A stretch of DNA of 64,000 nucleotides, taken from NCBI RefSeq assembly GCF_003932495.1, contig NZ_QZMT01000010.1:62001-126000 (forward strand). The letters are read 5' to 3'. The position numbers and the translations under genes were made by a program. Positions 24,608-28,558 of the stretch are shown piece by piece (position 1 is the first letter of the stretch; every line of letters starts with the position of its first letter). Origin of the DNA: Guyparkeria sp. SCN-R1 (GTDB taxonomy: Bacteria > Pseudomonadota > Gammaproteobacteria > Halothiobacillales > Halothiobacillaceae). The notes under the pieces were generated by a model, which worked only from the letters and a program-made list of their open reading frames with translations, did no database searches and was not told where the DNA came from.

Positions 24608-25438
24608 ATGAGTACGCAAGCAAACGGCGCGGCAAACGCGGCGGTCGATCTGCACTTCGAGGAGCGCGGCGGCGGTCTGCCGGTGATCATCATGCACGGG
24701 TTGTTCGGGTCGCTGTCCAACTGGCGCGGTATCGCCCAGTCGTTGAGCGCGAACTACCGCGTCATCAACGTCGACCTGCGCAATCATGGCCGTTCACCCC
24801 ACGCCCCGGGACTTTCCTACGAGGCGATGGCCAACGACATCCTGGCGGTGATGGATCGGCTCGGGGTCGAGCGCGCCCATCTGATCGGGCATTCACTGGG
24901 CGGCAAGCTCGGCATGGTGCTGGCCGACCGCCACCCCGAGCGGGTCGCCCGGCTGGCCGTGGTCGATATCGCGCCGAAGTGGTATCCGCCCTGGCACAAG
25001 GATGTCTTCGCCGCGCTGGATGCCGTTGAGCTCGAGACGCTTGAGTCGCGGGAGCAGGCGCGCCAGCAGATGGCCGCGCACGTGTTCGAGCCCGAGGTGC
25101 GGTCTTTCCTCGCGGCCAACCTCGAGCAGGTCGACGGGCAGTGGCGGTGGCGGTTCAACCTGCCCGAGCTCAAGGCTGCCTACGAGCAGACCTCGGACAT
25201 GCCCGCGCTGTCGGGCTTCTACCTCGGCCCGGCGTTGTTCATTCGCGGGGCCCAGTCGGCCTACATCGAAGCCGGCGACGAGGAGCGCATCGCCCGCGAC
25301 TTCCCGCAAAGCTGCATCGTCACCCTGGAGCAGGCGCGTCACTGGCCGCACATCGAGGACACGGCCGGATTCCTCGATGCGGTCACCCGCTTTTTCGCCC
25401 ACGGTTGCCACGATTTTCCGGAGCAATCGATCGGCTAA
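24608..25438 (+). CDS. Alpha/beta-hydrolase, YbfF-like esterase
   Basis: This 276-residue protein has the alpha/beta-hydrolase fold: HGLFGSLSNWRGIAQSL near the N-terminus, the nucleophile elbow IGHSLGGKLGM, and a catalytic His near EQARHWPHIED. The DLRNHGRSPH and YEAMANDILAVMD segments match the YbfF acyl-CoA thioesterase/esterase group. No signal peptide, so cytoplasmic. The physiological substrate is unknown. It is divergent from rsmB and directly precedes the GGA-rich non-coding region; its stop codon is eight bases before the palindromic GacA-like box. Confidence 0.87.
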   Translation: MSTQANGAANAAVDLHFEERGGGLPVIIMHGLFGSLSNWRGIAQSLSANYRVINVDLRNHGRSPHAPGLSYEAMANDILAVMDRLGVERAHLIGHSLGGKLGMVLADRHPERVARLAVVDIAPKWYPPWHKDVFAALDAVELETLESREQARQQMAAHVFEPEVRSFLAANLEQVDGQWRWRFNLPELKAAYEQTSDMPALSGFYLGPALFIRGAQSAYIEAGDEERIARDFPQSCIVTLEQARHWPHIEDTAGFLDAVTRFFAHGCHDFPEQSIG

Positions 25439-25446
25439 TTGCCCCG

Positions 25447-25464
25447 TGTAGGAAAATTCCTACA
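25447..25464. promoter_or_regulatory. GacA/UvrY/LetA-type response-regulator box
   Basis: TGTAGGAAAATTCCTACA is a perfect 18-base palindrome with the layout TGTAGG-N6-CCTACA. Established GacA boxes upstream of rsmX/Y/Z and csrB genes follow TGTAAG-N6-CTTACA, so this matches in length, spacer and ends. It lies 70-90 bases before the likely 5' end of the GGA-rich RNA, the expected place for activation by a GacS/GacA-type system. It is the only such site I noticed in the window. Confidence 0.8.
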
Positions 25465-25534
25465 AAAGAAATCGAAAAATCCTACGAAACTTTAGGCGAT
25501 TTCGTCTGTTCAGTCGGCTTCGAGGCGCGCATCA

Positions 25535-26166
25535 TGCACCCGTGCTTGGATGCACAGGGCAGGAAGCCCACCCGGCCAGGAGGCCGAGGGATCGTACGGC
25601 GGACAGGATGTTCGCGCAGGATGCACCGGCAGAGGATCTGCCAATTCGGGTAGTCGGGTTCGCTCGACGCGCGCACGGCGCTCTTTGTAAGGAAGCGCAC
25701 CGTAAACAACCGGACCTCAGGATAGAGTTCAGGTTTTTTGCGGGCCGCCAGGAAGGCCGCGGCGCGTTCGGCAAGGATGCCGGGCCCGGGTAACGGATCT
25801 TAGCCAAGCGCCCAGGACGGGTGCTGCCACGGACGGCAAGGGACGATTCCGCGCAGGACGCGCGCTCGATGCAGGATGGCATCGCTTAAAAAAACGGTGG
25901 TAGACGCCGGCAACAACAAGAAACCGCAGGAACGGTCAGCGGCGAGACAAGAATCAACAGGATCGGCAACGGATACTGCCCTTGTCTTAAGGAAAAGCAC
26001 TCGCCACACCGGACCCAGGGATTGGGACCCACGACTCAGCGCAGGGACAACGCGCCGGATCCATGCCGCAGGGCAGGATCGCTTCCCGGCCAGGAAGGCC
26101 CTCCTCCTTTTTCGCGACAGACGACCCAGAACCACCCTCTGAGTGACTCAGAATCGGGTGTTTTTT
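25535..26166 (+). ncRNA. CsrB/RsmZ-type regulatory RNA (CsrA/RsmA-sequestering, GGA-rich)
   Basis: About 630 bases carry no credible ORF but roughly thirty GGA triplets on the plus strand by hand count. Many sit in hairpin loops as AGGA: GGGC-AGGAA-GCCC (25557-25569), CGGCC-AGGA-GGCCG (25573-25586), GGCAGA-GGA-TCTGCC (25628-25642), CGGCA-AGGA-TGCCG (25769-25782), AGCGCCC-AGGAC-GGGTGCT (25807-25825), CGATGC-AGGATG-GCATCG (25867-25884), GGCC-AGGAA-GGCC (26088-26100). AGGATG in loops is the known CsrA target of E. coli CsrB. A GacA-like box precedes it and an intrinsic terminator ends it. The 5' end is approximate. At this length it may be two tandem RNAs. Role inferred: titrating the translational regulator CsrA. 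Confidence 0.82.
26133..26166 (+). terminator. Intrinsic terminator of the GGA-rich RNA
   Basis: CACCC (26133-26137) pairs with GGGTG (26156-26160), enclosing TCTGAG/CTCAGA around a TGA loop, followed by six T at 26161-26166. It lies about 170 bases before queA and closes the non-coding gene. Confidence 0.85.
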
Positions 26167-26336
26167 GCGTGTGTGTTTCGGCATCCCTGCCCGTCACCCT
26201 CCGTGGTGACTCGTAACCGTGCTTGGTTGGTGTCGCCTGCCCGGGGTGCTCCCTGTAACCGTTGGTGGCCGTGCGGCGGCCGTGGTCGATGTTCCCGGTG
26301 GCCTGTCCCCGCGCGGCGGGGTAGACTGCGCCCGCC

Positions 26337-28558
<2,222 letters not shown>

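Follow-up and report, generated by a model that had tools for sequence, protein, structure and literature searches.

The interval between a hydrolase gene and queA

In the window, the whole 64,000-nucleotide stretch of Guyparkeria sp. SCN-R1 DNA analysed here, the plus strand carries an alpha/beta-hydrolase gene and, after a gap of 898 nt, queA. The gap holds a GacA-type palindrome, a predicted core promoter, a row of hairpins with GGA in their loops and a predicted terminator (Table 1). The closest named matches of the hydrolase come from Guyparkeria and from MAGs labelled Halothiobacillus (87-98% identity), and a viral-contig search with this protein gave no match. Between 25500 and 26172 we counted 30 GGA triplets, 17 AGGA and 13 CAGGA, in agreement with the roughly thirty plus-strand GGA of a preliminary description of this DNA. 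A 600-nt window slid along either strand of the 64 kb reaches its highest GGA count here, with 30 GGA relative to a plus-strand mean of 7.8 (sd 3.4) and a minus-strand maximum of 18, and AGGA, CAGGA and AGGAT likewise peak at this place over both strands.

Table 1. Positions, in window coordinates, of the predicted RNA, its promoter elements, hairpins and flanking genes
Feature	Position	Strand	Basis or remark
Alpha/beta hydrolase (upstream neighbour)	24608..25438	+	name from reading translation
Palindrome TGTAGG-AAAATT-CCTACA, GacA/UvrY-type upstream activating box (TGTAGGAAAATTCCTACA)	25447..25464	+	
Predicted core promoter: TCCTACG, 17-nt spacer, GTCTGT	25480..25509	+	
Predicted CsrA-sponge RNA, ~650 nt (653 nt), 30 GGA	25516..26168	+	GGA counts, conservation, folding
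Hairpin 1, GTGC-TTGGAT-GCAC	25542..25555	+	folding and alignment
Hairpin 2, GGGC-AGGAA-GCCC	25557..25569	+	folding and alignment
GGA-loop hairpin	25573..25586	+	folding and alignment
GGA-loop hairpin (helix 4)	25599..25615	+	stem broken in L015 and L016
GGA-loop hairpin GGCAG-AGGAT-CTGCC (helix 6)	25628..25642	+	
Long central hairpin (helix 9), 16 pairs	25700..25743	+	all paired in 10/10 loci
GGA-loop hairpin (helix 11)	25766..25785	+	
GGA-loop hairpin (helix 12), AGCGCCC-AGGAC-GGGTGCT	25807..25825	+	three covarying pairs; quoted in preliminary description
GGA-loop hairpin (helix 14)	25850..25864	+	two covarying pairs
GGA-loop hairpin (helix 15), CGATGC-AGGATG-GCATCG	25867..25884	+	absent in L015 and L016; quoted in preliminary description
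Hairpin (helix 16), then AACAACAAGAAA	25888..25922	+	
Last GGA-loop hairpin (helix 21), GGCC-AGGAA-GGCC	26088..26100	+	
Predicted intrinsic terminator (helix 22), CACCC..GGGTG-TTTTTT	26133..26168	+	
queA (downstream neighbour)	26337..27416	+	name from reading translation

The triplets are placed preferentially in loops. Across the predicted RNA, loops with a closing stem of four or more pairs hold 17 of the 30 GGA, compared with 176 of 621 other triplets of the same RNA and with a mean of 3.8 (sd 1.75, maximum 9) loop GGA in 300 dinucleotide shuffles. The mean local unpaired probability is 0.45 for GGA and 0.22 for other triplets (p = 0.0002), the local model pairs six of the 30 GGA in full or in part, and the 25500-26172 fold, measured against 20 shuffles, is more stable than expected (z = -2.6). 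The display of AGGA and GGA in hairpin loops that had been proposed for this region thus exceeds all 300 shuffles, and the two perfect hairpins quoted in its support lie exactly at 25867-25884 and 25807-25825.

The preliminary description began at 25465, the first base 3' of the GacA-type box, and did not include the latter. This 18-nt box differs by one change per arm from the UvrY/GacA consensus TGTAAGN6CTTACA, as given in excerpts of two publications (PMC3171408, PMC4682653), with preservation of the palindrome, and is identical in all 10 aligned loci of the genus. Exact, mismatch-free TGTARGN6CYTACA occurs at two sites in the genome, the one described here and one on contig C38; across 27 genomes of the family 16 have a match, with 0-3 sites per genome relative to 0 or 1 in the reversed control. 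A 15-nt linker follows the box and leads, at a conserved distance, to TCCTACG in all 10 loci of the genus and to TCCGACG or TCTGACG in 10 of 10 loci of a second genus of the family (g4, presumably Halothiobacillus). The hexamer 17 nt further downstream varies (GTCTAT, GTCTGT, CACTAT, CGCTAC and others), GTCTAT being present in five of nine relatives of the genus. A sigma-70 scan found no promoter at the locus, and the promoter of a third genus (g2) has no such arrangement of linker and TCC motif. Based on the conserved linker, the TCCTACG-type motif and the hexamer spacing, transcription would start near 25516, which places the centre of the box some 60 bp 5' of the predicted start.

Conservation within and beyond the genus

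A DNA search located the region in nine of the ten other genomes of the genus, the tenth (G003) being 64% complete, and over the 10 loci 17 of 30 GGA are invariant as opposed to 131 of 582 other triplets (Fisher p = 9e-5). A hairpin-only structure of 120 pairs in 22 helices, derived from the RNAalifold pairs with long-range pairs dropped, is paired in 96.9% of 1188 cells. Pairs with changes on both sides number 16, relative to 6.5 (sd 1.8) in shuffles and 1-3 in slid-partner controls, and further pair types, one of five measures, do not stand out clearly from shuffles (36 of 500 reach the same number), figures for which the structure was taken from the very alignment on which it was tested, which favours it, and for which the shuffles ignore relatedness. 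Within helices G-U occupies 46 cells and A-C 11, which points to the plus strand as the one kept paired. The GGA loops, whose conservation in relatives the preliminary description had singled out as a check, are therefore preserved within covarying stems.

The same stretch contains plus-strand reading frames of 83 and 88 aa and minus-strand frames of 75-116 aa, as would be expected of small protein-coding genes. Among the ORFs that overlap the region, five of 75-116 aa lying within it were followed through the relatives, and a frame was considered broken upon a length change by a non-multiple of three or internal stops in the aligned stretch. By this measure the frames are broken in 7, 8, 9, 8 and 8 of nine relatives, consistent with the earlier judgement that no credible ORF is present. 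As the GGA loop placement also lies above all 300 shuffles and the hairpins are conserved, we assign a negligible probability to small coding genes or to DNA that is GGA-rich by chance.

In the presumed Halothiobacillus genus, a box with at most two mismatches and a GGA-rich region precede queA in 10 of 10 genomes, and the upstream neighbour is an alpha/beta hydrolase in all six loci inspected. Loop GGA number 8-16 per locus over the 10 loci, and none of 200 shuffles reaches the observed count, save two for L017. The body of the RNA is hardly alignable between this genus and Guyparkeria, and the comparison is thus limited to the 5' hairpins. For the first two, 92.1% of cells pair across 19 loci and 11 cells change on both sides relative to 4.8 in shuffles; both-side-changed pairs across the two genera (2 vs 1.7) and pair types are not raised. 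At the position of hairpin 1 the GGA is kept in seven of 10 loci of the second genus and the stem (as GTGT/ACAC) in seven of 10, and at hairpin 2 the AGGA is kept in nine of 10, with a stem that is partly broken in some.

In g2, represented by one genome, about 950 bp separate a box from the queA match downstream. The box is followed by 25 GGA in the next 600 nt, with 11 in loops (0 of 200 shuffles have as many), and the upstream gene does not resemble the hydrolase. The five genomes of another genus, g3, have neither an exact box nor a match to R1, a 142-position promoter-plus-hairpin model, and no GGA cluster lies 5' of queA in three loci with full upstream sequence; CsrA is present in all five, suggesting that the RNA may have been moved or lost in g3. 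From the survey of queA loci 7 of 23, without a recognisable start, were left out, and L080 offers only 193 nt of upstream sequence. Short matches in G020, G026, G039 and G040 were not taken for the RNA, G026 having its true locus at L074, and L022 and L026 were judged as ORFs only.

Of the 20 family genomes in which R1 gives a match, 19 served to train it; those matches therefore arise by construction, and its added value resides in its misses and in the paralogue test. In a sample of the class, 12 of 271 genomes were matched at E <= 0.001 (G000, G005 and G009 left out), and in six of seven loci inspected a box is present that deviates at one position at most. In other gammaproteobacterial families, the boxes matched by R1 at L109-L113 and L115 have at most one mismatch; L115, the richest in GGA of the inspected loci (16 GGA and 11 AGGA in 400 nt), may represent another unannotated Csr/Rsm RNA. 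Two more exact GacA-type boxes were seen in the g2 genome (L098, L099), one 5' of a gene whose small product resembles a secreted protein and the other flanked by two divergent frames.

The intrinsic terminator placed at the end of the RNA by the preliminary description is sustained in part. Its stem and T-run fold (z = -2.0, with 7 of 200 shuffles equally good) and four pairs of the helix have changes on both sides; on the other hand, the stem is interrupted, the element is not among the results of a consensus terminator scan, and the T-run is degenerate in L014-L016, where a weak terminator could allow some read-through into queA. These observations bear on whether the region is instead a long, CsrA-bound queA leader, in which a transcript from the GacA-type promoter would run into queA and CsrA would control the latter. 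Such an arrangement would account for queA being the next gene on the same strand and for a neighbourhood kept in the sister genus, yet about 170 nt lie between the end of the terminator hairpin and the queA start, and in g2 a clear stem with a T-run, 490 nt after the start of the box, leaves some 480 bp before queA. We thus consider a queA leader very unlikely.

The central hairpin stands out by an unusually long stem that is almost unchanged among the loci of the genus and by a loop GGA at 25720 that is invariant in 10 of 10 loci. The T6 at 25734-25739 was considered as a mid-gene terminator and rejected, as in the alignment fold it forms pairs with conserved A's of this long hairpin; a short form of the RNA is possible on these grounds but not favoured. 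A similar copy of the 35-nt stretch at 25888-25922 (hairpin plus AACAACAAGAA) was observed elsewhere in eight of the ten other genomes of the genus (aligned for L029, L030 and L031, with weaker matches in L032-L036), and no second copy was found in the window's own genome. The L029 copy has rplM on one side and, by reading, a glcF-like gene on the other, and is terminator-like on the rplM strand.

Comparison with Rfam, which had been suggested as a check, gave no assignment: nothing scores at the gathering threshold in the window or in the loci of eight relatives, and the four weak matches obtained at E up to 10 include CsrB (RF00018) and RsmY (RF00195) at 10.7 bits each, relative to gathering scores of 71 and 57. 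At values so far below gathering, the RNA falls outside both of these Rfam sequence families, and it is probably unannotated in these genomes. The lack of a gathering-score match, the long and nearly unchanged central stem and the recurrence in eight genomes of the 35-nt element with its AACAACAAG stretch would also suit a structured regulatory RNA with another main partner, for instance one acting by base-pairing or bound by Hfq/ProQ, in which the GGA are incidental. Such a role would leave unexplained the conservation of GGA in loops, including that at 25720, the covarying stems and the GacA-type box, and we regard it as extremely improbable.

CsrA, candidate regulators and a second box

The genome encodes one CsrA, recognized by the CsrA equivalog model above its curated cut-off and located near recA, recX, alaS and an aspartokinase gene (by reading), so that the protein whose absence would have spoken against a sponge is present. 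Among the 27 genomes of the family CsrA was found in 23, the misses being G003, G010, G021 and G022; the last three carry the RNA, and their missing CsrA perhaps reflects draft gaps. A response regulator encoded directly before uvrC has UvrY/SirA/GacA as its best NCBIfam match (191 bits, cut-off 280). A genome search found no PF09984 and no clear BarA/GacS. HPt domains occur in three frames, one of 715 aa (CheA-like by its length), one of 2206 aa and a hybrid kinase on contig C1, for which BarA is the best match over the REC-HPt end only and which has no Pfam kinase domain.

This divergent hybrid kinase is followed by a GGDEF-EAL gene on the same contig (about 251000-255400; L050, L052). Several AGGA precede one candidate start of this gene, the last as AAGGACGATG, and one AGGA lies in a GTCAC-TCAGGAACGG-GTGAC hairpin. 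The gene is a plausible CsrA target; its longest frame starts further upstream, in which case the AGGA motifs fall inside the coding part.

The preliminary description also allowed for one or more copies elsewhere, and no second copy was found in the genome: both a DNA search and an R1 search of it returned only the locus itself and a comEA-type promoter. Among the matches listed for an AGGA-triple pattern, which cover contigs up to C23 of 68, six fall within 434 nt at the locus and at most two neighbour each other elsewhere; the pattern overall is modestly above its reversed control (66+47 vs 50+33). Two of the places listed for this pattern were inspected as candidates for a second copy and set aside, one in or before a GGDEF-EAL gene and the other resembling coding-sequence surroundings.

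The second exact box of the genome (C38:3890-3907) precedes a short helix-hairpin-helix gene of comEA-like type, and the promoter features the same 15-nt linker and TCCTAC as that of the predicted sponge; by reading, 5S rRNA and a type IV pilin-like gene are nearby. An exact box with this linker and motif before a comEA-like gene is found in five of the 11 genomes of the genus, namely this one (L048) and G001, G002, G009 and G010 (L027, L100, L101 and L102); the arms of the G001 box match at all but one base. The protein at L027 scores above the cut-off of a short ComEA repeat model and below that of the full comE model. If GacA acts at this box, the Gac system would have a direct second output in the genus. 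We tentatively put forward, as a possibility that we rate as rather unlikely, that in this lineage Gac acts directly on two targets, the long sponge RNA and a comEA-like gene for DNA uptake, such that the signal relieving mRNAs of CsrA also switches on DNA uptake directly, and that the A-rich element and long central hairpin of the RNA could provide for a second partner.

A predicted CsrA sponge and its relation to known systems

GGA is the conserved content of the loops, including that of the central hairpin, while the stems covary, a pattern expected of CsrA sites. Together with the CsrA gene and the upstream GacA-type box, these conserved loops support the CsrB/RsmZ-type sponge of CsrA predicted by the preliminary description, and the region is very probably a single-copy gene for a GacA-activated, ~650-nt non-coding RNA that acts as a CsrA/RsmA sponge. 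Transcription, activation by GacA, CsrA binding and sequestration are here modelled on the CsrB/RsmZ systems. By this analogy, GacA~P (the GacA-like response regulator) would bind the palindrome and turn the gene on, and the RNA would fold into a row of short hairpins exposing about two dozen unpaired GGA, each of which could occupy one of the two RNA-binding faces in a CsrA dimer. CsrA would thereby be taken off the leaders of its target mRNAs, which would be freed.

Sulfur oxidation is common in Guyparkeria's group, and the analysis places a putative Csr/Gac switch, including the predicted sponge RNA, in the sulfur-oxidiser lineage Halothiobacillaceae. In the open-access literature we found no work on a Csr/Gac sponge RNA in this family and nothing joining Guyparkeria with CsrA or CsrB with Thioalkalivibrio; for Halothiobacillus and CsrA only a synthetic-biology review and work on Acidithiobacillus flagella were found. 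The box and the position beside queA locate the RNA where Rfam models fail, and a single RNA with ~30 GGA sites offers a simple case for studying how site number sets CsrA titration.

Among known sponges, E. coli CsrB (RF00018) similarly carries many GGA, AGGA and CAGGA in the loops of short stems, with 22 GGA, 13 of them in loops, by the script that gives 30 and 17 for the Guyparkeria RNA. It measures 369 nt (RefSeq) as opposed to ~650 nt, and its gene is flanked by syd and yqcC rather than by a hydrolase gene and queA. A GacA/UvrY-type inverted repeat is described upstream of csrB as well, at ~180 bp from the start (PMC4682653), compared with ~60 bp to the predicted start in Guyparkeria. Shewanella oneidensis CsrB1 and CsrB2, predicted at 420 and 421 bp, were likewise recognized from AGGA/ARGGA motifs and the TGTAAGN6CTTACA box, and are present as two copies, whereas one was found in the Guyparkeria genome; on Northern blots, additional csrB2 bands of about 600 and 700 were seen (PMC3171408), so the length of the Guyparkeria RNA is in itself no record.

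Pseudomonas RsmX, RsmY and RsmZ are GacA-dependent, with a palindromic upstream activating sequence and multiple unpaired GGA, as summarized in an excerpt of PMC2375449. The Guyparkeria RNA shares with them the palindromic upstream box and the many unpaired GGA. RsmX, RsmY and RsmZ are much shorter and have fewer GGA. Overall, the data are best explained by a sponge class already known in related bacteria, of which the Guyparkeria RNA would be a divergent, longer member.
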